The notes under the pieces are model-generated. The model searched no databases. It had not been told where the DNA came from and was given only the letters and a program-made list of their open reading frames with translations. A stretch of 64,000 nucleotides of DNA from Nannobrachium achirus (lineage: Eukaryota; Chordata; Actinopteri; Myctophiformes; Myctophidae), in NCBI GenBank assembly GCA_963921795.1, contig OY997658.1, positions 46,494,415 through 46,558,414 of the forward strand. The letters run 5' to 3'. Below are positions 219-55,804 of the stretch, piece after piece; position 1 is the stretch's first letter; every line of letters begins with the position of its first letter. A program made the position numbers and the translations under genes.

Positions 219-1801
219 GTAAGTCAAACACCACTATTGAATATTGTGGAACATTGATATATTCTAGTTAATGTATACATTGTGCTGTATGCAGTGAAAT
301 ATTCAAACCCTTTTTAGTTTTAATTGTTTAGTTTTAATTTATGGCATACAGCTCATGAATATAAAAAATCTAAAATCTAAAAATATTACAATATTACACA
401 AGACCACTCAAAACAAGGATTTATATACATAAATGTCAACCTTCTGAAGTCAGAGTTGCTGGATGTCCAGTGTGAAGATTCCACAGTCAGTGATGATTTG
501 GGATGCCATGGTATCTGCTGCTTTTTTACACAATATTCTATATAATATTTTTTATGGATCTGTATACCATAACTGAACAAAGCAAGAGAGCTTCAGACAT
601 TGATCATCTGTTCTTTAGGTGTCACAATGGACCAGCGCTCCACTAAATTACTGATAGCTAGCCCACTCTGCTTTGAAAGCAGAGCTCTGTCCACTCTCCA
701 TTTTCTTTTTTTTGTTGAAATAGGGAGACGCAGGAAGAAGTGTGTTTCATAAAAACCTTACAATTTACAATTTACTATTTACAATAATCCAAAGCGACTT
801 ACAATAAGAAGGTAATACATCAATATAATGGGCAAGATAATATGTCAGTACATAAACAACAATACAACAATGGTCTTTTTTAATTAAAAGTGTTCATACA
901 TAGGGATATCAATCTCTAGAAAAACAATAACATAAGTAGACCATATGACCTTCTTCACAAGTACAGTATTATTAGTGTAGGCTATTATGAACCTGGCCCG
1001 CAGTGTCAAAAGTCAATTAGTATTTTTTATAGAAATCAAACCAAATAAACAAACTAGGAATGAACAAATGAAGTCAGTATAGTGTAATGCATTTATGCAT
1101 GAGTGAGTGGATTGTTTAGTGTGGTATATATTAACACAAATGTTGGAAGGAGTGCATGTAAGGGAGGTGCAAAAGTCAGGATCTGCCAAAGGACTGGGGA
1201 GCAGGCTTTTTAAAGGGGATGTGAGCACCCAGGCCCAGGTGCTCCCTAATTAGCCTAATGACCTTCATTACACTGCCCTAGGAATCGAATCGAAACTTTT
1301 TTCAGAAGGGCAAAGCAAATACACATAACCACAGAACCGTGAAAGTGAAACGCATATAGCAACTACAACACAGTATAGGGAACCGTCACAAGGCCTATTT
1401 TATGAGTATGACAGGTTAAAATACCTAGCCTGCTGGGGGGCTAAAATATAATATAAATGGCATCGTCTGCAAGGGGACCGCGCAATGTCACTGTGTTTCC
1501 TGGAGCTCTTTATTTCACTCTCTTTCTCCTTTCTTGCACTTTCTCTGAAACATTTTCTCTTCTCTCTTGTTGATAATGCTAATTAAACCATTTTCTTCAC
1601 CATTCAATTTTCACGGTTTTGTTCATTTAAATTTCCACTTCCTACTTTTACATTCATTCTCTCTCGAGGACCACAATGGAAACAAGCCCTCAGGGCTTAT
1701 CCTTTATGGTTATCCTTTTAGCACATTATTGTATAACTGTTACCTCAATCAATCAATCAATCAATCAATCTCTTTGACCCTCTCCTCTTCCCCTCCATCA
1801 G
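219..1801 (+). other. sspo intron; L2-type 3' tail and small (TCAA)n inside
   Basis: This is AT-rich intron from GTAAGT at 219 to CCATCAG at 1795-1801. Around 770-830 the minus strand reads ATTGTAAGTCGCTTTGGAT, the conserved 3' end shared by fish L2-type LINEs and the SINEs that use them. A (TCAA)n tract lies at 1745-1770. No other coding sequence was recognised. Confidence 0.6.
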
Positions 1802-1932
1802 ATGAGGTGGAGCCATCGTGTCATCGCTACACGCAGATCAGGAACATCACCAAGGGGGACTGTCACCTGGACAATGTGGAGGTCAGCTTCTGCAAAGGAC
1901 GCTGTCTCTCCAGGACTGATGTCATCTTGGAG
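1802..1932 (+). CDS. sspo: SCO-spondin-like exon: first half of the C-terminal cystine-knot domain
   Basis: The exon runs from a CCATCAG acceptor to a GGAG|GTATGAG donor. The reading is DEVEPSCHRYTQIRN, then ITKGDCHLDNVEVSFC, then KGRCLSRTDVILE. Spacing of the four cysteines (SC, GDC, SFC, GRC) and the VEVSFCxGxC motif match the first half of a CTCK domain, used for disulfide-linked dimer or multimer formation at the end of SCO-spondin, otogelin, VWF and gel-forming mucins. Exon phase is 1 in and 0 out, which keeps the frame with both neighbours. The only oddity is a short ACGC/CA run just after the donor. Confidence 0.8.
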
Positions 1933-2568
1933 GTATGAGCAGAGGCACGCACGCACGCACACACTGAATAATGCAGATGATCCATGCTGCCTACAGAAGT
2001 TGCTATCTTCCACGCAACAATGTCATTACTATTGAAAGTGCATTCTGTAAAGTCAGTGATTCGTGCAGCATTTTGAGTCAAAATGTGCATTGCCTTCAGC
2101 CTGAACAGCAGCTGTAATCACTTGGCAAAATTTCCTGTCAAAATAAAAATGCCATCAGAGTAAATAGTATTATAACAAAAAGGTATACCACAGAAGAGTG
2201 AAGTAAAAAACATGGCCATGTACCGCTTGTCACAGCCGTTGCTGTAAACACCTGTGTTTTGTTTGCAGCACAGACAAGTTGCACTGGCAGGGCACAGCGA
2301 GGTCACTCTCCAAATAACACTAGCTGTCTCTCTTTCTGACAATTAGCTGCAGAGAGAAGAGTTTCCCCTACTGTTACCTGGCACTGCTGTACAGTACATA
2401 GCAATATTGTTTCCTGGACGTGTTGTTCTTTACAACCATGCTTGCGTGAACTGAATTCTCCTGATGATCGTTTCTGCTAACAAAGCATATCTCATCTACA
2501 CTTAAGATGTAGCACCAGTCATAATGTGAAGTACAGACTTTATAATTGCATTACATTATCTTTCATGT

Positions 2569-2629
2569 TTTTGGAGCTGTGTGGAACACAAGCTCCCTAT
2601 ACGTGGCCGTGTGTGTGGCCGTGTCTGTG

Positions 2630-2660
<31 letters not shown>

Positions 2661-2668
2661 AGCCTACA
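2569..2668 (-). repeat. Terminal part of a dispersed hairpin-ended repeat family
   Basis: Read on the minus strand, a (CAGA)n run is followed by CACGGCCACGTATAGGGAGC and a small GGAGC...GCTCC hairpin, then CCAAAAA. The same ending occurs on the plus strand near 24600-24662, 25385-25472 and 26545-26633. Sequence beyond CCAAAAA differs between these places (except within the 25-27 kb duplication), so that is probably the element end. Confidence 0.6.
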
Positions 2669-2716
2669 GGACCTTTTGTGACCACACGAGGGCGCTGTTG
2701 TTCAGGCCAGGCCAGA

Positions 2717-2719
<3 letters not shown>

Positions 2720-2796
<77 letters not shown>
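2720..2796. repeat. (CA)n microsatellite
   Basis: Uninterrupted CA dinucleotides of about 77 bases. They lie just downstream of the hairpin-ended repeat copy. Confidence 0.95.
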
Positions 2797-2797
<1 letters not shown>

Positions 2798-3970
2798 CTC
2801 CACTTCGAACAGAGGTTCGATTTTTTTTTCACCTCTTGCTTTGCAAGTTCTTTTGTGTGTTTCCTTTGTGTGCTCCAATTAAAAGTGTTCTATAGATAAT
2901 GTTCTCTCTTTGAACATTTTGACTACAAACAAGCTGTAAAACACACAATATACAACAGCTAGTTTTAACCGTGCGTTGTGATTTGCAGAGAGTCATTCAG
3001 AGCTGTGCCGTTAACCCGGTAAAAGTATCACAACTGATCGTTGTGGGCCAGCCCTGCTGGCCTTAAAATGAAATATTTTGGATTTCGGAGTGTAGAAAGC
3101 AATGCAGCCACCCTCACTGGCCTCGCACGGACACTCAACTTGCGCATGTGACAATCTTTCCCTCTCACAATAAAAGTATTCTAACAACGCTTTTTGGTGG
3201 GTTTCCAGCACTATGCTTGATTATACCACAACCAGTTTCAAACTAGCATTGTGATTGGCTGACAGGCATTGTAACGAGTGCCAACATAACACATACACAT
3301 GTTTACGATACCAGAGCGTAGCAACAGTCACTGCCAACACTCGTTTTCTTTATTTTACTTTTTTTGTTGTGCAGTAATATAGAAAAGTGTGATGCATTGC
3401 GATGCATCGTAGAATCGAATTGTTACCCAGTGAATCTTAATCGAATTTAATCGCGAGGGCAGTAACGATGCCTCTGGCTTCAACCACCTCTGGTTCCAAT
3501 GTCCTGACCTGAAAGACAAATGTCTCACTATGTTACAGTCTGCAGGCAAATAAGCCTAAAGATATCACAGAAAGAAAAACCTCATTAACTTTGATTCATT
3601 AGCAGACTAAAAATACACACAAACCTGCTGCGTATATGTGTTTCTCCCACCCTCCCTCCAGGTATTATCTAAATCTGTCCCAGCTCTATACGCACCGTGA
3701 CTTTGTTCTTTTTGCCCCTCGCTGCAGAAATAGACGCTCTCATGCCCAGAACGGGTAAAAATAAACATGGGCTCAGCTAAATGTGTCGCTACCCTGTGCG
3801 TTGCCATAGCAACAGGAATTGGGAGGCAGCAACAAAAAGCCCACCACCCCTCTCATTAGTCTTATGGAGTTGACTGACACACAACAAGAACATTCAATGG
3901 TACTTGTCTTGTTTAGACAAGTTTGTGTAAACACACACGCTCACACACAGACAATCACACACACTTACAG

Positions 3971-4289
3971 TAAAGGGATAGTTCACCCCCAAAATGACTT
4001 ATATCCTATTAATTACTCACCCCATAAGAGACTTGAGTTCACAGATATTGTTTTGTTTTTGTCGCATTCCTATGCCAATAATTTGATGACCAGCAGTGGT
4101 TCCCTATGGAGACACAAAGGAGACTCTTCGTGTCTCCTAGCGGATACATGATGGTCTTCTATTCTCCTCAAACTATTGGCTAAGTAGTGGGGACAAAAAC
4201 AAAGGAAATCACCATGAATTCTCTCCATGTCTCCATGGGGTGAGGAAATGTTAGGAAATAAGACATGTTTTAGATGAACTACTCCTTTA
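3971..4289. mobile_element. MITE with TAAAGGGATAGTTCA-type ends
   Basis: The left end reads TAAAGGGATAGTTCACCCCC. The right end, reverse-complemented, is TAAAGGAGTAGTTCATC, giving inverted termini with two mismatches in the first 15 bases. There is no coding capacity. Terminal repeats of this type are very common in fish genomes. A truncated relative lies at 58538-58612. Confidence 0.7.
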
Positions 4290-4417
4290 ACCACATGATT
4301 CTTAGCTTTCCTATTCTGGAGCGAATTAAGGGTCAATAGCACATCTAATAAGCGTCAAAGCGTGTCACACATATGTGAGGAAGAATGTAGATCGGCTATT
4401 TTCGGTGAAGAGATTTA

Positions 4418-4632
4418 AGCTGGTTGCACACTGCTGCGTTTTTCGTTGCGAAATGCGTTTTTCAGGGCAAGGAGAGAGAGAGAGATAGAGAGAGCAAGGG
4501 ACAGAGTGGTGCGCGAAACGGGCGGCAGTGTGCAAACGTGACTGACATAACGTGAGGTTGATTTTTTTATTTGCGTGCTCCGAAATTCAGTCCGATATTC
4601 GGCCCGAAAAACGCAGCAGTGTGCAACCAGCT
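4418..4632. mobile_element. Harbinger-like MITE with perfect terminal inverted repeats and TTA duplication
   Basis: Both ends carry a perfect 28-bp inverted repeat beginning AGCTGGTTGCACACTGCTGC. The element is flanked by TTA at 4415-4417 and 4633-4635, the 3-bp target duplication typical of PIF/Harbinger transposons. The 215-bp body holds a short GA-rich tract and no ORF. A longer relative sits at 40391-41190. Confidence 0.8.
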
Positions 4633-8975: not shown

Positions 8976-9194
8976 AAACAAGACTGCTGCTTGCTGCTTT
9001 AAATTCACACCTTGCATTTTCAAGAAAACTTTATGGGCTACAGTATATCCCCAAACGTTCGACTGCTCGGAACCTTTTGTGATTTACGTTTTCTGCTGAT
9101 AGATTGTTTCGTTTTTTGGTTTTCTTTTAGTGCGGTATATTCTGAATAAGACGCTATCGCGCGTTCATGCGAAACAGCTATAGGCTAATGTTTA

Positions 9195-12100
9195 CCCTTA
9201 CCAAAAAGTAGTATACTTACGTATACTCTGAGTATACTTGTTATGAACTAAGTATACTTTGTCTAAACTAATACTTTGGTAAGTATACTTTTCTGTTTAC
9301 TTAAAATGTACTATCAGGAATATACTTAACAAAAGTATACTTAGTTTATACTGACGAGTACACAGCAAAAGTTTAAGTATACTTTTCCTTCATTTCAAGT
9401 GCAGCCTATATTCTATAGTACTTATAGTACAAGTAAATCAAAATGTTCTACCTGCCTGCATGCAACATGGAGTGTTCTTATACAGTATCTGGCTTGTGGG
9501 TGTATACTTGTATATTTCTCACACAGGCTGCTTGAGGTAGTTGCCCTACACTGTGCACCTGTAGTGCTTATACTTGATGTATACTAGATTTATACTTGAA
9601 CTGCACTATTTTCATACATGAAGTATACCATTTATATACTCCAAACATACTATGCGTGAACTTAATGTACACTACTCTTTTACTTGCAGTGTACTTGAAT
9701 TGCACTTTTCTTATACTTGAGGGGTACCATATTTATTTACACAAAATGTATATACTACAAACATACTATGCGTGAACTTAATGTACACTACTCTTTTATT
9801 TGCAGTGTACTTGAATTGCACTTTTCTTATACTTGAGGTATACTATGGTCATACTTCAACTGCACTACTTTTAAACTTGCACCATACCGGTTATATACTC
9901 TAAACATACTGTGCGTGAACTTAATGGACACTACTCTTTTACCTGCAGTGTACTTGAATTGCACTTTTCTTATACTTGAAGAATACCAGTTATATACACA
10001 AACCATACTGTGCGTGAACTTAATGGACACTACTCTTTTACTTGCAGTGTACTTGAATTGCACTTTTCTTATACTTGAGGTGTACCATGTATTTTCACAA
10101 AACATACTATGTGTGAACGTAATGTACACTACTCTTTTGCTTGCAGGGTACTTGAATTGCACTTTAATTATGCATGACGTATACTACGATTGTACTTGAA
10201 ATGCACTATTATATACTGCAAACATACTATGCGTGAACTTAATGTAAACTTGCAGTGTAATTGAATTGCACTTTTATTATACTAGAGGTATACCATTTAT
10301 ACACAAAACATATTATGTGTGAACTTAATGTACACTACTCTTTTAATTACAGGGTAGTTAAATTGCACTTTTCTTATACTTGACGTATACTACATTTATA
10401 CTTGAATTTCACTACTTTTAAACTTGAATTGCACTTTTCTTATACATGAGGTATACTATGGTCATACTTCAACTGCACTACTTTTAAACTTGCAACATAC
10501 CAGTTATATACTCTAAACATACTGTACGTGAACTTAATGGACACTACTCTTTTACCTGCAGTGTACTTGAATTCTACTTTTCTTATACTTGAAGAATACC
10601 AGTTATATACTCAAACCATACTGTGCGTGAACTTAATGGACACTACTCTTTTACTTGCATTGTACTTGAATTGCACGTTTCTTATACTTGACGTATACTA
10701 CGTTTATATTTGAACTGCACTATTTTCATACTTGAGGTATACCATTAATATACTACAAACATACTATGCTTGAACTTAATGTACACTACTCTTGTATTTT
10801 CAGTGTACTTGAATTGCACTTTTCTTATACGTGAGGTATACTATGGTCATACTTCAACTGCACTACTTTTAAACTTGCAACATACCAGTTATATACTCTA
10901 AACATACTGTGCGTGAACTTAATGGACACTACTCTTTTACCTGCAGTGTACTTGAATTGCACTTTTCTTATACTTGAAGAATACCAGTTATATACTCAAA
11001 CCATACTGTGCGTGAACTTAATGGACACTACTCTTTTACTTGCATTGTACTTGAATTGCACGTTTCTTATACTTGACGTATACTACGTTTATATTTGAAC
11101 TGCACTATTTTCATACTTGAGGTATACCATTTATATACTACAAACATACTATGCTTGAACTTAATGTACACTACTCTTGTATTTGCAGTGTACTTGAATT
11201 GCACTTTTCTTATAATTGAAGTATACTATGGTCATACTTCAACTGCACTACTTTTAAACTTTCACCATACCGGTTATATACTCTAAACATACTGTGCGTG
11301 AACTTACTGGACACTACTCTTTTACCTGCAGTGTACTTGAATTGCACTTTTCTTATACTTAAAGAATACCAGTTATATACTCAAACCATACTGTGCGTGA
11401 ACTTAATGGACACTACTCGTTTACTTGCATTGTACTTGAATTGCACGTTTCTTATACTTGACGTATACTACGTTTATATCTGAACTGCACTATTTTCAGA
11501 CTTGAGGTATACCATTTATATACTCCAAACATACTATGCGTGAGCTTAATGTACACTACTCTTTTATTTGCAGTGTACTTGAATTGCACTTTTCTTATAC
11601 TTGACGTATACTACATTTATACTTGAATTTCACTACTTTTAAACTTGAATTGCACTTTTCTTATACGTGAGGTATACTATGGTCATACTTCAACTGCACT
11701 ACCTTTAAACTTGCACCATACCAGTTATATACTCTAAACATACTGTGTGTGAACTTAATGGACACTACTCTTTTACCTGCAGTGTACTTGAATTGCACTT
11801 TTCTTATACTTGAAGAATACCAGTTATATACTCAAACCATACTGTGCGTGAACTTAATGGACACTACTCTTTTACTTGCATTGTACTTGAATTGCACGTT
11901 TCTTATACTTGACGTATACTAAGTTTATATTTGAACTGCACTATTTTCATACTTGAGGTATACCATTTATATACTAAAAACATACTATGCGTGAACTTAA
12001 TGGACACTACTCTTTTACTTGCATTGTACTTGAATTGCACGTTTCTTATACTTGACATATACTACGTTTATAATTGAACTGCACTATTTTCAGACTTGAG

Positions 12101-13222
12101 GTATACAATTTATATACTCCAAACATACTATGCGTGAACTTAATGTACACTACTCTTTTATTTGCAGTGTACTTGAATTGCACTTTTCTTATACTTGAAG
12201 AAAACCATTTATATACTACAAACATACTATGCGTGAACTTAATGGACACTACTCTTTTATTTGCATTGTACTTGAATTGCACGTTTCTTATACTTGACGT
12301 ATACTAAGTTTATATTTGAACTGCACTATTTTCAGACTTGAGTTATACCATTTATATACTACAAACATACTATGCGTGAACTTAATGGACACTACTCTTT
12401 TACTTGCATTGTACTTGAATTGCACGTTTCTTATACTTGACGTATACTACGTTTATATTTGAACTGCCCTATTTTCATACTTGAAGTATAGCATTCATAT
12501 ACTGAAAATATACTATGTGTGAACGTAATGTACACTACTCTTTTACTTTGAATGTACTTAAATTGCACTTTTATTATACTTGAGGTATACTACGTTTATA
12601 CTTTAACGTACTATGCGTGAACTTAATGGACACTACTCTTTTACTTGAATTTCACTTTTCTTATACGTGACGTATACTACGTTTATATTTGAATTACTTT
12701 TAACCTTGAAGTATACCATTTATATACTCAAACTATACTATGCATGAACTTAATGTGCACTGCTCATTTACCTCTAGTGTACTTGAATTGCACTTTTCTT
12801 ATACATGAGGTATACTACGTTTATATTTGAGCGGCACTTTTTTCATACTTGAAGTATACCATTTATATGCTCGGAACATACTATGCATGAACTTGATGGA
12901 CACTACTCTTTTACTTGAATTGCACTATTCTTATACTTGACGTATACTACGTTTATATTTGAATTGCATTAATTTTAAACTTGAAGTATACCATTTATAT
13001 ACTCAAAACATACTATGCGTCAACTTAATGGACACTACTCTTTTACTTGCAGTGTACTTGAATTGCACTTTTTTTTAATACTTTACGTATACTACGTTTA
13101 TACTTGAACTGCACTATTTTCATACTTGAAGTATACCATTTATATATTCAAAACATACTTGAATTGCACTTTTCTTATACTTGAGGTATACTATGTTTAT
13201 ACTTGAACTGCACTATTTTCAT
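9195..13222 (+). repeat. Left outer arm: tandem array of AGTATACTT-rich repeats
   Basis: After about 400 bases of AGTATACTT-rich terminal sequence, the arm is built from variants of a 100-190-base unit. The unit contains GTGAACTTAATG(G/T)ACACTACTC, CAGTGTACTTGAATTGCAC and TTATATACTCCAAACATACT. Open frames inside the array come from the periodicity and are not taken as genes. Confidence 0.9.
10528..11682 (+). repeat. 385-bp higher-order repeat block within the left arm
   Basis: The same composite sequence starts at 10528, 10913 and 11298, spaced exactly 385 bases, and each contains subunits at about 100, 140 and 145 bases. The three copies differ by few bases, so this block was amplified later than the rest of the array. 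Confidence 0.8.
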
Positions 13223-13848
13223 TGTAGCGACGGGGTGCAACTAATTAATAAGTATTGTAATGGTTAAAGAAAGACAGAGTGTGAAATATTATAGCTTTGG
13301 AAATGGAGGACTGTATACTCTGGAGTTGAGGTTATGCCCACCACAGGGCTCCAGTCAAAGAGCAGTAATCAATGATGACACTTGATGGCGTTTTATGTGT
13401 TTTTTATAAAGGAGGTAGTTGGTGGACACAAACATACACAATGATGAATGGTATCTGAAAATATAGAAATACTACATAAGGATAAGGAGACAATAAACAA
13501 TATGCAGTAGTAACCTACACAAATTCAGCATATTACTGAAATGAGCCATGCACTCATGTGCCAGCTTAGACCCAGCATGCACTCACACACAGGTTAGACT
13601 AGGGCCTGTTAGCTTAGCCACTGAAGTTTAGCTAGCAAACACAATTACAAAAACAAACTTTTTAAACCACACACAGATCAATTCTGATACAATGACCTGT
13701 TACCACATGAACCATTATTGTTCTGCAGGACAGAAAACTCACTTTGTCAAGAACGCATTCTTATGTGCATATGTTTGTGTGTGGCTGCACTCATGCATGT
13801 AAACAGTTGGGGTCCTCTGTTCAAGTGGTGCCCAAACAACTGCCTCAA

Positions 13849-13989
13849 CTAAAGTGTCACCTGGGTCCTGATCAGAGGGTACCTGAGACATGCCTGCTCT
13901 AAATGGGGACAATAAAGGTGGTGATGGGGTTTGGTGTTGCTGAACTGTCTGTAGATTTCACTCTGAATGTGTAGACTTGCCGGTCCCAT
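13849..13989 (-). other. Short ORF in left inner arm (46 codons)
   Basis: It begins MGPASLHIQSEIYRQFSNTK and continues for 26 more residues with several His, Cys and Leu. It lies just after the minus-strand acceptor-like site. The first 20 residues are identical to the mirror-image ORF at 14623-14709. I recognise no protein family, and identity may simply reflect the inverted repeat. Confidence 0.25.
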
Positions 13990-14164
13990 TATACACCTAC
14001 AAATGAACAGATAAAGCACATTAGTTATGGGAGTCAACAGTAGTAATATACTTTGAATTGACAAGTAGAATGCCAAGATGTGTGATGATAATACCTTTGT
14101 CTGATGTTCTCCTCCTCCCAGGGTGGTGTTCGGGCAAAAGAGTTCCCCCCGGGAACACACACCC

Positions 14165-14172
14165 TATTTATA
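14165..14172 (-). promoter_or_regulatory. TATA box, left inner arm, pointing left
   Basis: On the minus strand TATAAATA follows CTCCCAGGAC. About 75 bases on, CAAAG|GTATTA could act as a donor (GT at 14094-14093). It mirrors the site at 14413-14420. Function is inferred from layout only. Confidence 0.4.
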
Positions 14173-14412
14173 GTCCTGGGAGGGTGAAACCAAGTGGGAA
14201 GTGGATAGAGGGGAGATTGAGAATGATTCTAATGCATTTAATAATACAAAAGTACTTAAAACACTAGCACATGGATATGCTCCTTTAATCCATATCTCCA
14301 ATTACCACTATGCCCACTAAATGTGTACACCCACCATACATTATTAAATGCATTAGAATCATTTTCAATCTCCCCTCTATCCACCCCCCATTTGGCTTCA
14401 CCCTCCCAGGAC

Positions 14413-14420
14413 TATAAATA
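14413..14420 (+). promoter_or_regulatory. TATA box, right inner arm, pointing right
   Basis: TATAAATA is preceded by CTCCCAGGAC. It is followed about 70 bases later by a good donor CAAAG|GTAAGG (GT at 14490) and then by TTCATTTGTAG (AG at 14614-14615). The order TATA, donor, acceptor, ATG suggests a small spliced transcription unit, unproven. Confidence 0.4.
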
Positions 14421-14622
14421 GTGTGCGTGTTCCCGGAGGGAACTCTTTTGCCCGAACACCACCCTGGGAGGAGGAGGAGACAGACAAAGGTAAGGGTTTT
14501 TACAAATAACAGCTTTACATTATCTTCACAAATCTTGAGTATTCTACTTGTCAATTCAAAGTATATTACTACTGTTGACTCCCATAACTAATGTGCTTTA
14601 TCTGTTCATTTGTAGGTGGATA

Positions 14623-14709
14623 ATGGGACCGGCAAGTCTACACATTCAGAGTGAAATCTACAGACAGTTCAGCAACACCAAACATTCCCCAAACTGTTTA
14701 CATGCATGA
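14623..14709 (+). other. Short ORF in right inner arm (28 codons, shortened copy)
   Basis: It shares the first 20 residues of the left-arm ORF, then HSPNCLHA and a stop, because the right arm has lost about 125 bases here. It is seven bases after the acceptor-like AG. No family recognised. Confidence 0.25.
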
Positions 14710-15289
14710 GTGCAGCCACACACAAACATATGCACATAAGAATGCGTTCTTGACAAAGTGAGTTCTGTCCTGCAGAGCAATAATGGTTCATGTGGTAACA
14801 GTTCATTGTGTCAGAATTGATCTGTGTGTGGTTTAAAAAGTTTGTTTTTGTAATTGTGTTTGCTAGCTAAACTTCAGTGGCTAAGCTAACAGGCCCTAGT
14901 CTAACCTGTGTGTGAGTGCATGCTGGGTCTAAGCTGGCACATGAGTGCATGGCATTTCAGTAATATGCTATGTTTGTGTAGGTTACTACTGCATATTGTT
15001 TATTGTCTCCTTATCCTTATGTATTATTTCTATATTTTCAGATACCATTCATCATTGTGTATGTTTGTGTCCGCCAACTACCTCCTTTATAAAAACCACA
15101 TAAAACACCAAGTGTCATCATTGATTACTGCTCTTTGACTGGAGCCCTGTGGTCGGCATAACCTCAACTCCAGAATATACAGTCCTCCATTTCCAAAGCT
15201 ATAATATTTCACACTCTGTCTTTCTTTAACAATTAAAATACCTATGCAGAACTGTGTTAGAATATTAATTAGTTGCACCCCGTCGCTAC

Positions 15290-18200
15290 AATGAAAATAG
15301 TGCAGTTCAAGTATAAGCATAGAATACCTCAAGTATAAGAAAAGTGCAATTCAATGTTTTGAGTATATAAATGGTATACTTCAAGCATGAAAATAGTCTA
15401 GTTCAAGTATAAACGTAGTATACGTAAAGTATAAAAAACATGCAATTCAAGTACACTGCAAGGTAAAGAGTAGTGTACATTAAGTTCATGCATAGTATGT
15501 TTTGAGTATATAAATGGTATACTTCAAGTAATAAAATAGTGCATTTCAAGTATGCAAGTAGTATACCTCACGTATAAGAAAAGTGCAATTCAAGTACACA
15601 GCAAGTGTACATTAGGTTCACGCATAGTATGTTTTGAGTATATAACTGGTATACTTCGAGTATGAAAATAGTGCAGTTCAAGTATGACCATAGTATACCT
15701 CAAGTATGAGAAAAGTGCAATTAAAGTGCACTGCAGGTAAAAGAGTAGTGAACATTAAGTTCACGCACAGTATGTGTTGAGTATATAAATGGTATACTTC
15801 GAGTATGGAAATAGTGCAGTTCAAATATAAACACAGTTTACGTCAAGTATAAGACAAGTGCACAGCAAGTAAAAGAGTAGTGTACATTAAGTTCACGCAT
15901 AGTATGTTTTGAGTATATAAATGGTATACCTCGAGTATGAAAATAGTGCAGTTCAAATATAAACGTAGTATACGTCAAATATAAAACAAGTGCAGTTCAA
16001 GTAAAAGAGTAGTGTCAATTAAGTACACGCATAGTATGTGTTGAGTATATAAATGGTATACTTCAAGTTTTAAAGTAGTGCAGTTCAAGTATGACCATAG
16101 TATACCTCAAGTAAAAGAAGAGTGCAATTCAAGTGCACTGCAGGTAAAAGAGTAGTGTACATTAAGTTCACGCACAGTATGTTTTGAGTATATAAATGTT
16201 ACTATTCAAGTTAAAAGTATTGCAGTTCAAGTATGACCATAGTATACCTCAAGTATAAGAAAAGAGTAGTTCAAGTGCACTGCAGGTAAAAGCGTAGTGA
16301 ACATTAAGTTCACGCACAGTATGTGTTGAGTATATAAATGGTATACCTCGAGTATGGAAATAGTGCAGTTCAAATATAAACGTAGTATACGTCAAATATA
16401 AAACAAGTGCAGTTCAAGTAAAAGAGTAGTGTCAGTTAAGTACACGCATAGTATGTGTTAAGTATATACATGGTATACTTCAAGTTTTAAAGTAGTGCAG
16501 TTCAAGTATGACCATAGTATACCTCAAGTAAAAGAAGAGTGCAATTCAAGTGCACTGCAGGTAAAATAGTAGTGTACATTAAGTTCACGTACAGTATGTT
16601 TTGAGTAAATAAATGGTATGATTCAAGTTTAAAAGTAGTGCAGTTCAAGTATGACCATAGTATACCTCAAGTATAAGAAAAGAGCAATTAAAGTGCTCTG
16701 CAGGTAAAAGAGTAGTGAACATTAAGTTCACGCACAGTATGTGTTGAGTATATAAATGGTATACTTCGAGTATAGAAATAGTGCAGTTCAAATATACACA
16801 TAGTATATGTCAAGTATAAGCTAAGTGCAATTCAAGTACAATGCAAGTAAAAGAGTAGTGTATTAAGTTCACGCCTAGTATGTTTTGAGTATATAACTGG
16901 TATACTTCAAGTATAAGAAACGTTCAATTCAAGTACACTGCAGGTAAAATAGTAGTGTACATTAAGTTCATGCATAGTATGTTTTGAGTATATAAATGGT
17001 ATACTTCAAGTTTAAAAGTAGTGCAGTTCAAGTATGACCATAGTATACCTCAAGTATAAGAATAGTGCAATTCAAGTAAAAGAGTAGTGTCCATGAAGTT
17101 CACGCATAGTATGTTTTGAGTATATAACTGGTATGGTTCAAGTTCAAAAGTAGTGCAGTTCAAGTATGACCATAGTATACCTCAAGTAAAAGAAGAGTGC
17201 AATTCAAGTGTACTGCAAGTAAAAGAGTAGTGTACATTAAAATCACGCATAGTATGTTTTGAGTATATAAATGGCCTACCTCGAGTATGAAAATAGTGCA
17301 GTTCAAATGTAAACGTAGTTTACGTCAAGTATAAGACAAGTGCACTGCAAGTAAAAGAGTAGTGTACATTAAGTTCACGCATAGTATGTTTTGAGTATAT
17401 AACTGGTATGGTTCAAGTTTAAAAGTAGTGCAGTTCAAGTATGACCATAGTATACCTCAAGTAAATGAAAAGTGCAATTCAAGTGCACTGCAAGTAACAG
17501 AGTAGTGTACACTAAGTTCACGCACAGTATGTTTTGAGTATATAAATGGTGTACTTCAAGTTTAAAAGTAGTGCAGTTCAATTATGACCATAGTATACCT
17601 CAAGTAAAAGAAAATTGCCATTCAAGTATGACCAAAGTCTTCCTCAAGTAAATGAAAAGTGCAATTCAAGTGCACTGCAAGTAAAAGAGTAGTGTACATC
17701 AAGTATGTTTTGAGTATATAAATGGTAACTTCAAGTTTAAAATTAATGCAATTCAAATATAAACGTAGTATACGTCAAGTATAAGAATAGTGCAATTCAA
17801 GTAAAAGAGTAGTGTCCATTAAGTCCACGCATAGTATGTTTTGAGTATATAACCGTTATACTTCAAGTATAAAATAGTACTGTTCAAATGTAAACGTAGT
17901 ACAATTCAAGTACCCTGCAGGTAAAAGAGTAGTGTACATTAAGTTCATGCATAGTATGTTCCGACTATATAAATGGTATACTTCAAGTATGAAAAAAGTG
18001 CTGTTCAAATATAAACGTAGTATACCTCATGTATAAGAAAAGTGCAATTCAAGTACACTAGAGGTAAAAGAGTAGTGCACATTAAGTTCATGCATAGTAT
18101 AGTTTGAGTATATAAATGGTATACTTCAAGGTTACAAGTAGTGCAGTTCATATGACCTTAGTATACCTCAAGTACAATAAAAGTGCTATTCAAGTACACT

Positions 18201-18703
18201 GCAGGTAAAAGAGTAGTGTACATTAAGTTCACGCATAGTATGTTTTACGTATATAAATGGTATACTTCAAATTTAAATGTAGTGCAGTTCAAGTATGACC
18301 ATAGTATACCTCTCGTATAAGAGAAGTGCAATTCAAGTAAATAAGTAGTGTACTTAAGTATACATCTGAGTATATGAATGGTTTATTTTAAGTAAGGGAA
18401 TAGCACAATTCTAGTGTATGAATACAATAATGTAAGTATACTCATATATACTTCATATATACTTTAAGTAAACTTAGAGTTTACTCGAGTATACTCAAAA
18501 GTGGGCCAATTCAGATTACTTTTAGTACGGTAGGTATACTGTAAGTATACTAACTAGTACACTAACTAGTACATTTGTTAGTATACTACTTGTACATAAA
18601 TATCAGTATACTTGTACTTAAAGTATACTTAAGAAATATACTCAAAGTTGACTTAAGTATACTTAGAAAAGTAAACTTGAAGTTTACTACTTTTTGGTAA
18701 GGG
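15290..18703 (-). repeat. Right outer arm: inverted tandem array
   Basis: This is the minus-strand version of the left array, with motifs such as GAGTAGTGTACATTAAGTTC and TATGTTTTGAGTATATAAAT repeated many times at about 100-200 base spacing. It is about 600 bases shorter than the left array and its units are more varied. It does not show the exact 385-bp period. Confidence 0.9.
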
Positions 18704-18794
18704 TAATGGATATGCCAAATGCATAAAAATGAGTGATGAGGCTGGTGGATTGATACAACACAGATAAACATCTACAGACCAGAGCTTTATCAGT

Positions 18795-18900
18795 GAGAGT
18801 GAGGGAGGGAGAGAGAGAGGGAGAGGGGAGGGGGGGATACAGTAGGGGGAGAGAAGGAGGGAGAGAGGGAGGGAGAGATGGAGTAGGGAGAGAGGCAATC
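18795..18900. repeat. Purine (GGGA/GA) tract
   Basis: Low-complexity G/A-rich DNA just outside the foldback element. Long open frames on the minus strand here are composition artefacts. Confidence 0.8.
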
Positions 18901-24829: not shown

Positions 24830-24939
24830 ATCATGTGTACCGATTTTTGTGACATTTGAAGGAAATATGTAGGAAAAGGAGCAAAAAGTGTGTTTTGGAG
24901 AAAATTCAAGATGGCGGAAAATCTATCATGGCGCAAATG
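24681..24939. other. Spacer with direct repeat and (GT)n at 24761-24828
   Basis: ATCACTTACCCTACCTAATG occurs twice (24665 and 24708), followed by a GT microsatellite of 68 bases. Confidence 0.7.
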
Positions 24940-27260
24940 GGCGTGGCCTATATGGGGAGATGCGTCATGACCCAAGGAATCCAGGGAAAAAATATTTTTA
25001 ATTTTCCGACCTACGGTTCAAGAGTTACAGGCCAAAACGTAAAGTGGGGTGTTATGGCGCCACCATGCGGCCAAATGACACAATTATTTTTTATTTAATC
25101 CTTGAAATCATTATGAACCTCCTCTCCAAGTCTTGAAACTCTAGCCCCTATGGTTTGCGAGAGACAAATAATTGAATGTGAGTTTTTGCGATTCCCATTA
25201 TAAGTCAATGGGGAAAATTAATTCACTAATAAATTAATATCAATTAAACTATAGAACCTTTCTCTTAGAAAAGTAATAGCCCACGATTCCCGAGTAAGCC
25301 GTTCGATTTGACATATGGCGCGAGTGTGTGGTGGCAAAACTGTGGGACTAGTGGCGTGCCGAAGTTTAGGAAGTTCAGGCTACATACAGACACACACACA
25401 GACAGACACACAGACAGACAGACAGACCCACACGGCCACGTATAGGGAGCCTGTGCTTCACACAGCTCCAAAAACTAGGAAAAGAAAGTTACAGCTTATA
25501 TTGTAACTTGTAAGTGGAGGCCCATGCTTTAAGTTAATGTGACTACAAGTTTTCCATGTAAAACATCAATGAAATGAAAAGAGTAAAAAGATTGTTTTTC
25601 AGCTCTGCTTCGAGGGAGGGAATTTGATACACATTGTGACAGTTGTAGTTGAATTAGCCCTAGAATGGCTGCGATGTTACAGGATGAATTCCAGATTAGC
25701 CTACATGTATCTGGAATACTAGGACTACAGTTTAATAACCTGCAATCTGAAATAAATAATACATTTTTCAGCCTCAAGGCTCATGCGGCCGCTTTTCAGC
25801 ATTTCAAAATGGATGTCCTTCAGTATAGACATATTCTATCCCCCGTGGCAGTGTTATCTTTGATGCAAATCATCCACTCATGTTTTCCATCTCCCTGGAC
25901 GTGATGTGTGCCTAGTGCCTAGACTTGAGAATCATTGTGTCATCATGACCGGTGCTGATGTGAGCTAAATGGGAGGCAAGGTGGGGTTGCCTCCCTGGTG
26001 GCCAAATGGTTGGTGTATGTGATGCCAAGGTGTTATAGAGCAATGATGATAAAAACCGAAAGATTAGAATCCAAATTTGGCCTTTCGCTTGATTAGCCTG
26101 TCCCCATATAGGCGTGGCCTATATGGGGAGATGCGTCATGACCCAAGGAATCCAGGGAAAAAATATTTTTAATTTTCCGACCTACGGTTCAAGAGTTACA
26201 GGCCAAAACGTAAAGTGGGGTGTTATGGCGCCACCATGCGGCCAAATGACACAATTATTTTTTATTTAATCCTTGAAATCATTATGAACCTCCTCTCCAA
26301 GTCTTGAAACTCTAGCCCCTATGGTTTGCGAGAGACAAATAATTGAATGTGAGTTTTTGCGATTCCCATTATAAGTCAATGGGGAAAACTAATTCACTAA
26401 TAAATTAATATCAATTAAACTATAGAACCTTTCTCTTAGAAAAGTAATAGCCCACGATTCCCGAGTAAGCCGTTCGATTTGACATATGGCGCGAGTGTGT
26501 GGTGGCAAAACTGTGGGACTAGTGGCGTGCCGAAGTTCAGGCTACATACAGACACACACACAGACAGACACACAGACAGACAGACCCACACGGCCACGTA
26601 TAGGGAGCCTGTGCTTCACACAGCTCCAAAAACTAGGAAAAGAAAGTTACAGCTTATATTGTAACTTGTAAGTGGAGGCCCATGCTTTAAGTTAATGTGA
26701 CTACAAGTTTTCCATGTAAAACATCAATGAAATGAAAAGAGTAAAAAGATTGTTTTTCAGCTCTGCTTCGAGGGAGGGAATTTGATACACATTGTGACAG
26801 TTGTAGTTGAATTAGCCCTAGAATGGCTGCGATGTTACAGGATGAATTCCAGATTAGCCTACATGTATCTGGAATACTAGGACTACAGTTTAATAACCTG
26901 CAATCTGAAATAAATAATACATTTTTCAGCCTCAAGGCTCATGCGGCCGCTTTTCAGCATTTCAAAATGGATGTCCTTCACTATAGACATATTCTATCCC
27001 CCGTGGCAGTGTTATCTTTGATGCAAATCATCCACTCATGTTTTCCATCTCCCTGGACGTGATGTGTGCCTAGTGCCTAGACTTGAGAATCATTGTGTCA
27101 TCATGACCGGTGCTGATGTGAGCTAAATGGGAGGCAAGGTGGGGTTGCCTCCCTGGTGGCCAAATGGTTGGTGTATGTGATGCCAAGGTGTTATAGAGCA
27201 ATGATGATAAAAACCGAAAGATTAGAATCCAAATTTGGCCTTTCGCTTGATTAGCCTGTC
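24940..27260 (+). repeat. 1.16-1.17-kb tandem duplication
   Basis: Copy 1 (24940-26102) and copy 2 (26111-27260) match end to end with few substitutions and small indels in the (CAGA)n stretch. Each contains the hairpin-ended repeat and a downstream piece with an intact 79-codon frame (25665 and 26823). That frame differs at one residue between copies and resembles no protein I know. High similarity implies recent duplication or an assembly duplication. Confidence 0.9.
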
Positions 27261-30277: not shown

Positions 30278-31321
30278 TCTATAAATGCGAGAAGTCTCTG
30301 CGTGTCTGTCTGTCTGTGTGTCTGTAATCCGCGTATCTCGAGAACCGTTCGTCCCACCGGCTTCAGATTCGGCACGCGCGTTCCCCGCCGCGGCACGGAG
30401 TGCAGTGCCGGGTCTCGACCTGACCCGACGCGCGGTTTTCCCGAACCGGCGCGAAACGTTCGGAATCTCCTTATGCGGGGTTGATTGTTGACATCAGGCT
30501 GTTCCGGAGGAAATCGGCGAAAGCTCTGACTCATTGTGACATCACTTCATAAAAGGCTCTGACATCACGTACGCCACATGAGTCAACAAAAAATCTCTGT
30601 GAGTGTGTATGTAATCCGCGTATCTCGAGAACCGTTCGTCCCACGGGCACGCGCGTTCTCCATATATGGGCGTTCGTCCCACGGGCACGCGCGTTCTCCA
30701 TATATGGGCATAAAATGAATGCCCCCATATATGGGCATAAAATGGATTGCAGACAGACAGATACAGATATCTCCATATATGGACATAAATGGACAGAGGC
30801 AAACAGATGGTCAAAGATCTCCATATATGGGCATAAAATGGACGCAGACAGACAGATACAGATATCTCCATATATGGGCATAAATGGACACAGGCAAACA
30901 GATGTTCAAAACGGGTCCTATGACAAGAGGTATAATGAGGTTTGCATTAAAGGGGGAACCGGCACTGTGTCTGCAACACAGTTGGAGGCACAGACAGATA
31001 CTCCATATATGGGCATAAAATGGACGCAGATAGACACATATCTCCATATATGGGCATAAAATGGACCCAGAACTATAACTGCAGTGATCTCCATATATGG
31101 ACATAAAATGGACGCCGACAGACAGACAGACAGATACAGATATCTCCATATATGGGCATAAATGGACACAGGCAGACAGATGGTCAAAACGGGTCCTATG
31201 AAAACAGGTATAATGGGGTTTGCATTAAAGGGCGGGGCATTCATTCCCTATTTACATTGTTCCGAGTTGGCCAGGTCGCCGACTAGACGCTGGGCCGCCC
31301 GAAGGGCGGCCCAGCTTCTAG
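30278..31321 (+). mobile_element. Helitron-like non-autonomous element
   Basis: The 5' end is A|TCTATAAATGCGAG followed by a (CTGT)n-like run. The 3' end is a GC-rich hairpin followed by TTCTAG|T, fitting the Helitron rules (insertion between A and T, 5' TC, 3' hairpin then CTRR). The segment CGCGTATCTCGAGAACCGTT recurs at about 30326 and 30617. No Rep/helicase ORF is present. Assignment rests on termini only; there are no target duplications to test. Confidence 0.55.
30656..31170 (+). repeat. Array of CTCCATATATGGGCATAAA units
   Basis: About a dozen copies of a short palindromic core (CCATATATGG) plus GCATAAAATGGAC, separated by variable CAGACAGA-rich spacers of 20-90 bases. Spacing is irregular and units are interrupted, so it is not a CRISPR array or a simple satellite. 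Loose relatives lie at 34685-34810 and 42765-42875. Confidence 0.85.
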
Positions 31322-35247: not shown

Positions 35248-36374
35248 GTCATGGGCCCCAGGGATATTTTGGTTCAGATTCTCGCAAATTCACCAAATTT
35301 GGCACAGATGTTGTCCATAACATACTTAATCATTTTAAGATGGGTGCCAAGATGGGCACCCCATGGTACTGCCATAATTGAGCAATGCAATTGGTGTCCC
35401 ATTAACTTAACACATATGGTGCCAACCCCGAGTTTCCCGAGTTTGTATTGGTACTAGTGCTGTGCCAACCCCGAGTTTCCCGAGTTTGGGCCGTTTTTGA
35501 AAAAAAAAACTTTTTTTTTTTTTTTCAAAATTTTTTTTTTTAAATTTTTTTTTGGACCTCCAGAAATGTATTAGGCATGATCGCGATCGCGAAATTGCAT
35601 GTTTAACCCCCATACCAACCCATTCTTTCAAACATGGCAGCCATGTTTGTTTACATCTGAAGAAAACATAATGGCTGATAAATCATGAATGCCTGAACGG
35701 ATTTCCAAGCGGATTTTTTTGTTTGAAAGCTGTGAACAGCATCTACACACGTGGTGCATCATCTAGGCATGGGCGTGCACTTTTTACACACTTGCACAAT
35801 TACATGGAAGTCTATGGTAACCATGGCAACGCGAGACATTGAAGAGAAAAAATCATTGCAACATAACATTACAGGGAAAAAAAAGCAAAAAAAGAATCTG
35901 CTTTAAGTAGCATATAACTGGTCAAACTAGGGGGTTTTCATGATGCTGAATCCATTGCAAGCATCCGTTTTGCACAAAAAACATTCCTTGGGCTAAAAAA
36001 CTGCCCTACAAGACTATGGTTTAGTGATGAAAAGTGATGAGTCATCACTTTTAACACTTTCGTGGTGGCCGTTTTAGCCCAATGAATGTTTTTTTTATGC
36101 AAAACGGATGTTTGCAATGGATTCAGCATCATGAAAACCCCCTAGTTTGACCAGTTATATGCTACTTAAAGCAGATTATTTTTTTGCTTTTTTTTCCTGT
36201 AATGTAAAGTTAATGGGACAATTGCATTGCTCAATTATGGCAGTACCATGGGGTTCCCATCTTGGCACCCATCTTAAAATGATTAAGTATGTTATGGACA
36301 ACATCTGTGCCAAATTTGGCGAATTTGCGAGAATCTGAACCAAACGGTCCTTTTATTGCCCTGGGGCCACCGAC
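35248..36374. mobile_element. Foldback element B, centre near 36041
   Basis: Flanked by TA on both sides. The ends are GTCATGGGCCCCAGGG and (reverse complement) GTCGGTGGCCCCAGGG. The arms are inverted copies from both ends to the centre AAAAGTGATGA-G-TCATCACTTTT. The core half (GCAATGGATTCAGCATCATG, AACATTCCTTGGGCTA) is shared with A, C and D, but the outer arms (GGGTGCCAAGATGGG, GGTACTGCCATAATTGAGCA) are its own. About 450 bases (35410-35864), with TTT/AAA-rich low-complexity sequence, have been inserted in the left arm only. Confidence 0.85.
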
Positions 36375-50239: not shown

Positions 50240-51664
50240 GACCCTCTTTATGTCTCCCATGAGGACAGCCTGTTGAAGCCAGCAGGCTGGGCACCACTTT
50301 GATGGATGTTAGGAGTGCTTTATGGAGGCAAAAAGCAGGGGTTTGTAATTGTGTGTGAATAATGCAGGGAGACAATTGAGACCCAAGTGTGCTTTGTTTT
50401 TTAGACCCTTGGAGCCACGGACCTATGCTTCATAAGGGGAGCAAATAGTCAAACTTGGGTTATTTTTGAGACATGATACTGATTGTGTACCTTTAGATTA
50501 TATATTATTATTATTATTATTCATCCATAAAATTCTCAAACTGAGGTCTGATTTGGGGGGTAAATTGGAACTTTCTGTTTGATTTTGGCAACGTGACTTT
50601 GCTGCAGTCAAATTATTGAGTGAGTGTGAGAGGTATGGTTTGTTAGGTGATTTGCAGTGGGGATGGCTTTGATAGATTGTGCTATACAAGGGAGGAATAA
50701 GTGACGTCTTTTTCTCAGGAGGCCCTAACTGTGATCGCTCTGTGGGCAAGAAAGGGGCGACGTCTGACCTAGGAGGACCGGCTTTGATTGATTGGAATGT
50801 AGTGTTGGAGAAATGCAGAAATCCTTGTGGTCTTAGAGGCATGGGTTTGATAAATGTGCCTGAGTGGGGAATAGACAGCCTTACCCTTTCACACACTGTA
50901 CCTGTATGTGAGAGATGGGAGAAGACATGGTGGAGTTGACTTGATTTGTAGGCATAGCTTTGAGAGAACTGCAATTTGCATGAAGGAAACAGTGCTTAGA
51001 TCTTTGACTATTACACTATGTTTGTGGTCTTACATATTTATCAGCACATTTTCTGAATGGTCTTTCATATGTATCAGCACATTTTCTGCATGTATGAAAT
51101 GTTTTGCACACATCTACATATGGCAAAGTAGTCCATTTTTAATGGTTCTTTTTAGCCACACTCGCAGTGGATGGCAAGTTCGGTCCATCTCTCCAACACT
51201 GGTCCCAAGCAAGATATCTTGAAAAAGATTTCTGTGGAACTTTCTGTGTACCGGCTTCAGGCACCCCAGAGGTTGAATCTGAACAAATTGCTTCTTGGTT
51301 CTTAGTCCATGTTTTAAACATAAGCCACATTTTAACAGCTTGTAAGGTACATTACATGCTGTGTATAATTGTCTAGGCAGTTTAACTTAAAGATTCAGCC
51401 AGGTGCAGAGTATTGAGTGTTGTCTATCAGCAGGTGAGTTGGAAGTGAAATGAAGTGTGCAGAATCACCTGCTGGGCTGGGTCACTTATCTGCACCAGCA
51501 CCAGATAATTATGGTATATTCCTACTTGTTGGAATTAGAACAAAAAGTATGTTTTTTTTAAAAGGAAACTGGCACCATTTATTCTTCATTCCTCTCCTTT
51601 TGTTGAAGGACAATTCAAGATATGACATGCTTCATTAGAGCTTCTGGTACTTTTTTATGTACTA
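50240..51664. other. Intronic DNA, nothing recognised
   Basis: Includes a 158-codon minus-strand frame (50498-50974) that ends in a low-complexity Asn run and shows no family resemblance, so it is not annotated as a gene. Confidence 0.5.
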
Positions 51665-52329
51665 GCCGGGGAACCACTGTGCCAAAATGAGAGAAGACTT
51701 GTGATGTCATGACATACTCAAAAATGTTGTTTTTCCTATTAATTTGGTCATTAAGGTACACAGAATGAGAGGCCTGCTCTGCCGGAAACATTGCGAAAAA
51801 AAGTTTCCCATTGACTTCACTATACTGGAAAAAACACACAAAAAAAAATATGCTTTAAGTAGCATGTGAGGGGTCAAACTAAGGGTTCTTCATGATTCTG
51901 AATCCATTGCAAGCATTTGTTTTGCATGAAAAACATTCCTTGGGCTAGATTTCAGCCTCTCAAACCTGTGAAAAGAGATGAGTCATCACTTTTCACCGTT
52001 ATTTTGGTCCGTTTTCTAGCGCAAGGAATGTTTTTCATGCAAAACAAATGCTTGCAATGGATTCAGAATCATCAAGAACCCCTAGTTTGACCCCTCACAT
52101 GCTACTTAAAGCATATTTATGTTGGTGTGTTTCTTTCCTGTATAGTGAAGTCAATGGAGTGAATATACAAATGGCCATAACATTTTTTCGCAATGTTTCC
52201 GGCAGAGCAGGCCTCTCATTCTGTGTACCTTAATGACCAAATGAATAGAAAAAACAAAAATAAAAAGTATGTCATGACGTCACAGGTAAAACCCTATTCT
52301 TTGAGCTTTTGGGCCTGTGGCTCCCCGGC
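51665..52329. mobile_element. Foldback element C, uninterrupted
   Basis: Flanked by TA on both sides. The ends are GCCGGGGAACCACTG and (reverse complement) GCCGGGGAGCCACAG. The arms pair to the centre AAAAGAGATGA-G-TCATCACTTTT at 51982. The core half matches A, B and D (GCAATGGATTCAGAATCAT, AAGGAATGTTTTTCATGCAA). The outer arms (TACACAGAATGAGAGGCCTG, TGACATACT) are unlike those of A, B and D. It is the simplest complete member at 665 bp. Confidence 0.88.
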
Positions 52330-52822
52330 TATACCACATTTTATTTTGACCAATTTGTATGCTTGAGTGTGTTAATACAATAAGGCTCACTGGTAATAAA
52401 TACTGTCTAGATTTGAATCCCATGAACTATGTGAATTTTATAGATTTGTCTTATAGTGTTTTTCTGTAAGAGCGGGCTCCCCGTCTCTCCAGCTCTTTAG
52501 TAAACAGAAAATACATTTTCATGTCGGGATACACATTTCATTCAATCAGAGGAGAGAGAGAGAGAGCTCATGATGGGCTCTCAAATGGGTTCTCTCTCCA
52601 TTGGATGAAATTTGTTGATGCACATGAAAATGTATTATCTGTTTATTAAAGAACTGGAGCGATGGGGAGACCCCTGTTACCGAACAAACACTCTATAGCA
52701 AAGATTCCTATCATAATATTCAGTTGAGCTTTAATTTTCTTTTTATACAATATCACTTACAGCACCATTAATAATGTTAATTTGGATCAACATGAAAACA
52801 CACCAGGGATGGGTGGGTGGGC
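52330..52822. other. Intronic DNA with an imperfect inverted pair
   Basis: CAGCTCTTTAGTAAACAGAA...ATTTTCATG and CATGAAAATGTATTATCTGT...AAAGAACTGG (about 52489-52525 and 52622-52660) form an inverted pair with a GA-rich centre, likely a small MITE. Confidence 0.45.
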
Positions 52823-54843: not shown

Positions 54844-55202
54844 GTCCGGGAGCCAAATGGTGATTTTTGGCTGAACGTGGATTCGCCTGTAAAAGTTTTT
54901 TTCTCAACTGATTCTTGTAGCTTGGGGTCACCTCTTAAGGATTCAAGATGATGACCAGTGATATCCATTGAGCATTTTTTATTATTAACCCCTTAATGCC
55001 TGAAACACAAGAAATCCACCCAGGAGGAAAATACCCAGAAAAAATTTTTTTTTCTGGATATTTAAGGAGGATCTGAGGGGTCTAACTAGGGGTTTGTCAT
55101 GATGCTGAATCCATTGCAGACATTTGTTTTTCACAAAAAAACATTCCGTGGGCTAGAAATGGCCTCAGAAAACAATACACGTATGGGTGAGTATTCATGT
55201 TA

Positions 55203-55537
55203 GTCGGAGGCCTTAGGGTTTTCTTTCTCGTGCTAATCAGTCTAAAAGTGCAAAATTTTGCACAGATGTAGCTCAGGGCATGCTCTATTGATTTAGCTAG
55301 GGCGCCCGAGTCTGCGACATTCGGGGTCGCCACAGCGGCCAAATCAAGTTGGGCTCCCATCGACTTTAGTGATGAAAAGTGATGAGTCAAGAGTTTTGTG
55401 GGTGCTGTGGTGACCCCGAAGGTCGCCGACTCGGGCGCCCTAGCTAAATCATTAGAGCATGCCCTGAGCTACATCTGTGCAAAATGTTGCACTTTTAGAC
55501 TGATTAGCACGAGAAAAAAAACCCTAAGGCCTCCGAC
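55203..55537. mobile_element. Inner foldback nested at the centre of D
   Basis: The ends GTCGGAGGCCTTAGGG and CCCTAAGGCCTCCGAC are perfect inverted repeats, flanked by TA (55201-55202, 55538-55539), inside the outer palindromic target CATGT/ACATG. Its own arms (GCTAATCAGTCTAAAAGTGC and inverse) meet at AAAAGTGATGAGTCAAGAG, where the central palindrome is damaged on the right. The same inner unit, half lost, is seen in element A at 27791. Confidence 0.85.
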
Positions 55538-55804
55538 TAACATGAATACTCACTCATACGTGTATTGTTTTCTGAGGCCATTTCTAGCCCACAGAATGTT
55601 TTTTGTGCAAAACAAATGCCTGCAATGGATTCAGCATCATGACAAACCCCTAGTTAGACCCCTCAGATCCTCCTTAAATACCCAGAAAAAAAATCTTTTT
55701 CTGGGTATTTTCCTCCTGGGTGCATTTCTTGTGTTTCAGGCATTAAGGGGTTAATAATAAAAAATGCTCAATGGATATCACTGGTCATCATCTTGAATCC
55801 TTAA

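Follow-up and report, generated by a model that had tools for sequence, protein, structure and literature searches.

A probable family of large non-autonomous foldback-type DNA transposons in the genome of the fish Nannobrachium achirus

Foldback elements have been reported from insects, plants and a sea urchin (PMC4079207; this and the other papers cited below are represented here by excerpts of their text). Galileo, a member of the P superfamily in Drosophila with a known transposase, has inverted repeats of up to ~1.26 kb and a 7-bp target duplication (PMC3573991), and binding sites within its repeats have been proposed to form a multi-site synaptic complex (PMC3688188). Tetris has inverted repeats of up to 1,735 bp, ~220-bp units, 8-10 bp duplications and three complete copies, and a shorter relative has the same ends (PMC4079207). 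A review of giant eukaryotic transposons, in the excerpts available, uses the word 'foldback' once, for Drosophila (PMC6431247). Large elements with repeats inside their ends are also known among the CACTA transposons: soybean Tgmt* is 20.5 kb long, encodes its own proteins and has CACTA ends and a 3-bp duplication (PMC2613891), with subterminal repeats that span 159 and 732 bp (PMC2613891). Here we describe a 9.5-kb element at positions 9195-18703 of a 64,000-nucleotide stretch of Nannobrachium achirus DNA (contig OY997658.1, referred to below as the window), which is very probably a copy of a young, non-autonomous family of DNA transposons of cut-and-paste type and foldback architecture.

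The boundaries of the element, 9195 and 18703, are exact: it starts with CCCTTACCAAAAAGTAGTA and finishes with the reverse complement of this sequence. Self-comparison gives a best inverted alignment of element positions 1192-4618 with 9180-5494 (78.7% over 3739 columns). The left and right arrays that make up the bulk of the arms align in inverted orientation only, at 73-76% in the five best pieces; the comparison gives no match when they are set in the same orientation, or when the right array is reversed but left uncomplemented. Inward of the 19-25 bp terminus, the outer ~370 bp on the left and ~285 bp on the right give no inverted alignment, and the two ends are different sequences, L-type and R-type. 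A preliminary description, made from the letters of the window, took the whole length to be an inverted repeat with outer arms of AGTATACTT-type repeats in opposite orientation. The two halves do align inverted, as do the arrays, but because the two ends differ in sequence the claim about the whole length needs correction, and AGTATACTT-type repeats are confined to the outermost few hundred bp, the bulk of the arms being an array organised in an 11-bp register. The distinct inner inverted repeat, described as having a spacer of ~90 bases, is indeed found at 13229-15294 with a spacer of ~95 bp; we refer to it as the core.

The searches for copies were made against the element's own 1.66-Gb genome. 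The 19-bp end, with up to 2 mismatches, occurs at 86 + 96 places, compared with 7 + 8 for a backwards control. Of these 182 places 100 were listed; 40 inward-facing pairs account for 80 of them and the other 20 are single ends, so that pair counts are lower bounds. With the window copy there are thus at least 41 complete copies, 6,878-18,764 bp in length (median 10,715 bp), of which 15, the window copy included, were read from end to end and the other 26 at the ends. The search for copies with identical ends that the preliminary description had proposed therefore yields at least 40 further complete copies. A 32-bp left-end pattern (up to 3 mismatches) gives 36 + 39 matches, 61 of them exact, against 0 + 0 in the backwards control, and the 40 scored of 178 candidates for the right arm of the core are all full-length and 97-100% like the core arm of the window copy. 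The 19-bp inverted terminus, arrays in 11-bp register and core sequence are present in all 15 full copies, with a shortened left core arm in C5_16325. The first ~220 bp of the L-type end are near-identical in 14 of the 15, the exception, C15_13286, being interrupted at ~base 60, beyond which an L-type end is present in the other 14; a 49-bp piece deeper in this region is present in 4 copies and missing in 10. The R-type end is present and near-identical in all 15, with small deletions in two.

The copies are flanked by short target duplications. An exact 2-bp duplication is seen in 34 of the 41 copies, compared with 9.6% in between-copy comparisons, whilst a 3-bp match is seen in none and a 4-bp match in one (C15_13286). 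Eleven kinds of dinucleotide are duplicated: TA (7 copies), TT (6), AA (5), CA (4), AT (3), AC, GT and CT (2 each) and TC, GA and GG (once each). The report of 19-bp ends flanked by TA is exact for the window copy, but TA is simply the target duplication of that copy and other dinucleotides take its place elsewhere. In tests restricted to the 34 copies with an exact duplication, both flanks are weakly biased towards CATGNY-WW-RNCATG, and with a weight matrix built from the left flanks the right flanks score above all 5000 permutations.

A search with joined flanks produced 34 junction-spanning alignments from 13 of the 41 copies; self-matches, tandem neighbours and gapped palindromes were left out of the count of empty sites. 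The joined flanks of the copy at C6:185884-196598 give a gap-free match of 107 bp (99.1%) to window positions 57776-57882, and this part of the window is a repeat copy that represents the unoccupied version of the C6 insertion site. Two empty sites match the joined flanks of C16_2393 gap-free at 84-85%, and two sites match those of C6_36778 with the gaps distant; for C2_6916, C6_1645 and C14_17548 the match is to a tandem neighbour in the same locus, which is weaker. The large number of copies that share these ends, their target duplications and the few empty sites, together with the lack of a transposase in the copies read, bear out the suggestion of a giant non-autonomous foldback family.

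The register of the arrays is pronounced. All of the 25 strongest autocorrelation lags up to 699 are multiples of 11 in the left array, and 24 of 25 in the right; the inverted core has no 11-bp period by autocorrelation. For consecutive occurrences of a motif no more than 66 bp apart, where a multiple of 11 has a chance of ~1/11, we find 130 of 135 ATAC-to-ATAC spacings (left array) and 98 of 107 GTAT-to-GTAT spacings (right array) to be multiples of 11. The same holds for the further array motifs CACT (50/54) and AGTG (58/59), but the register is looser for TACTT (55/66) and AAGTA (32/50). A tandem-repeat finder also returns some periods outside the 11-bp series, 206 and 225 among them. Array lengths vary far more than the core: in copies with no evident nested insert, the left array measures from 0.87 kb (C6_1645) to 6.57 kb (C2_6916).

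Several comparisons bear on the age of the family. The window copy and that at C13:61620527-61630771 lie on separate contigs with different flanks and different duplications (TA and TT) and are 99.83% identical (9490 matches and 16 mismatches in 9506), apart from a 730-bp indel in the array and some small gaps. Pairwise core differences are 0.1-1.3% among 11 of the 15 full copies (the remaining four, in which the core end has no exact match, were omitted), and seven of these form a tight group at 0.2-0.6%. The two core arms of the window copy differ by 4-13% in aligned pieces, with indels, and the palindrome would therefore be older than the burst.

Two relatives offer clues to how the palindrome arose. 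At C16:10639256-10641711 lies a 2,456-bp element that is an inverted repeat over its own length, has L-type sequence on both ends (matching the left end of the window copy at 93% and 96%), retains the TATA/exon/intron part of the core and shows no 2-bp duplication in its flanks. The ~820-bp element at C7:71653130, which encloses an unrelated stretch and whose second terminus is one base off, looks like a palindrome with a probable R-type end at each side. The amplified family combines one L-type with one R-type end. One left-left and one probable right-right relative, thin evidence though two elements are, suggest that the family has hybrid ends: symmetric palindromes may arise from one half, and before the burst an exchange of ends, or recombination, may have produced the hybrid. 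There is also an older end, CCCTTACCAAAAACTAGTATACTTAAGTATAC. This older variant, with ACTAG in the left terminus, was observed in L029, L030 and L034 and at C3:191265, C4:76516847, C6:232784, C8:70014828, C12:205792 and C14:65308174. On six large contigs it lies no more than ~0.25 Mb from a contig end, and its cores are near-identical in the three copies read, which is why we regard it as probably carried by subtelomeric duplications.

The core is a second inverted repeat and is better conserved than the arrays. Reading outwards along each arm, TATAAATA is followed by a first-exon-like stretch in the window copy and the C16 relative; some arms carry deletions, but otherwise an intron-like stretch (GTAAG...TTTGTAG) and an ATG come next in these two elements. 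In copies L030 and L034 the ATG lies within stop-to-stop frames of 161 and 163 amino acids, and the longest frame within the window element is 120 amino acids. Rfam reports nothing at gathering score in 9000-18900. Two other views of the core were considered and rejected: that it is an independent insertion, as there is no duplication around it and the array flips there, and that it is a protein gene, as none of five core translations has a Pfam domain. Surplus core DNA in the C19:58452729 and C12:216112 copies appears by eye to consist of other repeats, and the surplus stretch of the former includes a 200-base run of N. The coordinates of the parts of the window element are collected in Table 1.

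Table 1. Features of the window element (positions in the window)
Feature	Positions	Strand	Basis
Left target duplication TA, 2 bp	9193..9194	.	Sequence and flank comparison among copies
Left terminus CCCTTACCAAAAAGTAGTA, 19 bp	9195..9213	+	
L-type end region, AGTATACTT-like repeats	9195..9570	+	Comparison of full copies
Left array, 11-bp register; higher-order periods 22, 99, 143, 242, 385	9571..13228	+	
Core left arm	13229..14246	-	
TATAAATA of left arm, pointing left (outward), putative promoter	14165..14172	-	Read from sequence
Core central spacer, ~95 bp	14247..14341	.	
Core right arm	14342..15294	+	
TATAAATA of right arm, pointing right (outward), putative promoter	14413..14420	+	Read from sequence
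Putative intron-like stretch GTAAGG...TTTGTAG, then ATG at 14623	14490..14615	+	Read from sequence
Right array, 11-bp register, opposite in orientation to left array	15295..18420	-	
R-type end region	18421..18703	-	Comparison of full copies
Right terminus, 19 bp	18685..18703	-	
Right target duplication TA, 2 bp	18704..18705	.	Sequence and flank comparison among copies

An autonomous partner with the same 19-bp ends had also been proposed as a target for searching, and none was found among the copies and solo ends read. The longest copies were considered as candidates and rejected, as no transposase was seen in seven stretches from six copies of 13.9-18.8 kb. What Pfam does recognise in C15_13286 is a Pao-type retroelement with an open 2021-amino-acid frame (Peptidase_A17, DUF5641; L014:1003-7065), located in the right array of C15:13286830-13304316, and in C10_18971 a reverse-transcriptase/endonuclease frame of 1007 amino acids; frames of 298 (C6_36778), 297 (C8_35485) and 372 (C10_18971) amino acids have no Pfam match. 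The 20 solo ends among the places listed were likewise rejected as autonomous copies, no transposase being recognised in those read. A full core lies nearby in 7 of the 20 and a variant L-end partner in 3; of six read further, four have a core. C10:19800253, C15:34687616 and C16:16211168 have R-type ends and arrays within the 2 kb read. Three solo ends, C7:71653130, C9:15450370 and C9:22265360, have no core in the stretch read. In the first, fragments of other elements with Pfam matches (SCAN/integrase, BED finger) lie 4-8 kb inward. The other two are L-type ends; the adjoining 8-9 kb contain no second terminus at up to 1 mismatch in 13 bases, and a transposase was not recognised. The first 350 bases inside C9:15450370 (L090, reverse complement) comprise an L-type end and then a unique, apparently promoter-like sequence, ACTTTATAAACGACACACCC. 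This stretch, the best lead at present, may belong to the border of an autonomous relative that another repeat interrupts.

A number of observations weigh against the interpretation of the element as a member of a mobile cut-and-paste family with phased protein-binding arrays. Neither the copies, nor the nested inserts examined, nor the DNA beside the solo ends read showed a recognisable transposase, in a scan that relied on visual inspection for many of the smaller frames and covered 7 of the 20 solo ends in depth. No excision was seen, and clean empty sites number only a few. Seven of the 41 copies lack a 2-bp duplication, and in one of these, C12_62074, the junction differs from unoccupied paralogues in the window; the mismatched duplications of these seven recall the chimeric copies of Galileo (PMC3573991), and recombination may be their source. 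Single target sites are no more symmetric than chance (2.21 versus 2.25 matches). A period of 11 bp is near, but unequal to, one helical turn, so that phasing drifts across several units, and for the putative promoters, the splicing and the binding of protein by the arrays the evidence is the sequence alone.

How might such an element move? On the transposon interpretation, a DDE-type transposase from an unseen autonomous relative, supplied in trans, would act at CCCTTACC...GGTAAGGG, and insertion would occur with a 2-bp stagger at sites tending towards the CATG-flanked motif described above. The transposase or a helper protein would find numerous binding sites along the arrays, at close to the same helical phase; a role of this kind has been proposed for the THAP sites of Galileo and for the subterminal repeats of En/Spm. 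The core may comprise two outward-facing promoter/first-exon units, a relic of an autonomous element or of a captured gene, with the unit doubled as the palindrome formed. More tentatively, and with the odds against it, the family could be a previously undescribed kind of foldback element. The palindrome would be rebuilt from half-elements, as in the symmetric L-L relative, the probable R-R relative and an L-R hybrid that went on to amplify; the 11-bp units, hundreds in each arm, would make up a helically phased multi-protein scaffold for transposition with a divergent promoter pair at its centre; and an uncharacterised transposase with a 2-bp stagger and a palindromic CATG target would move the element.

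A recent burst of ~10-kb palindromes is found here together with shorter symmetric relatives in one genome, and for this reason sequence can be used to test both palindrome building and the role of a kilobase-scale 11-bp array. The inverted repeats of Galileo and Tetris, as given in the excerpts, are below 2 kb, unlike these palindromes. Long inverted repeats of such size may be hazards for chromosome stability and for assembly.

Other features of the window include three further near-complete palindromes of 350-870 bp (54935-55804, 51663-52331 and 35860-36211), a 1.16-kb direct duplication, 98.5% alike and nearly head to tail (24934-26102 and 26105-27260), and frames like those of long interspersed nuclear elements (LINEs) at 59453-61879, the first without a Pfam match and the second (60800-61879) matching RVT_1 (E=1e-20). 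Minisatellite-like repeats based on CCATATATGGGCATAAA occupy 30633-31232, and similar words adjoin the solo end at L091.

Among known transposase types, one of the CMC (CACTA/EnSpm-Mirage-Chapaev) group is the most plausible mover of the family, although we put its chances at somewhat below even. CCCTTACC resembles the CACTACC ends of fish EnSpm repeats; such ends were not found in the window. Duplications of 2-5 bp in the CMCT clade (PMC12730594) are compatible with the 2 bp seen here, and CACTA elements have repeated subterminal motifs that are bound by a DNA-binding protein (PMC2613891). Against this, CMC termini are 5'-CA..TG-3' in most, not all, cases (PMC12730594), whereas the termini here are CCC..GGG, with the duplications of 34 of the 41 copies directly outside them in a set of copies selected by that terminus, and neither a coding copy nor a transposase, which in this group has C(2)C and H(3-4)H motifs, was found. 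A PIF/Harbinger-ISL2EU-Spy (PHIS) transposase is more doubtful: Harbinger-related transposons are described as giving duplications of 0, 2 or 3 bp (PMC12730594), which the 2 bp here fits, but no coding copy was found.

Membership of the Galileo/Tetris/FB foldback group, with a P- or Mutator-type transposase (FB elements are assigned to Mutator), is highly improbable. The architecture is similar, with long inverted repeats containing tandem repeats, a non-coding middle and arms of variable length, and chimeric copies without matching duplications are known for Galileo (PMC3573991). The duplication, however, is 2 bp as against 7 bp in Galileo and 8-10 bp in Tetris, and this difference keeps the element apart from both. 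Still less likely is a Tc1/mariner-type element, for which the target duplication is TA: TA is the most frequent single duplication here, but 27 of the 34 exact duplications are other dinucleotides, and the TA-specific transposase of the preliminary description must be rejected with it. We also rejected piggyBac, whose target duplication is TTAA, as no copy has TTAA at both sides. We give equally little credence to a satellite or palindrome expanded in place, as that description alternatively suggested, or to an assembly artefact of hairpin reads: the arrays do change length rapidly, but there are dozens of copies with fixed ends, mostly with target duplications and a few with empty sites, the two ends are different and, in the window copy, the arrays are only 73-76% alike.

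Text searches of one open-access library, covering the end sequence as well as foldback elements that are giant or from vertebrates, listed no report of this family. Tgmt*, as far as the excerpts describe it, resembles the element in its short terminal inverted repeat, many subterminal motifs and short duplication and shows that large size is possible, but the repeats of the fish element span kilobases. In working anatomy the closest systems are Galileo and Tetris. Galileo, on the same footing, has long, internally repetitive inverted repeats and chimeric copies with mismatched duplications; the arms of the present element (array plus core arm) are, in contrast, several kb each, its duplication is 2 bp and no transposase has been found for it. 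Tetris and FB, again from excerpts, share with it a non-autonomous character and inverted repeats divided into domains, one part of which is tandem, whereas unlike Tetris the fish element is built on an 11-bp register, duplicates 2 bp and is present in at least 41 complete copies.

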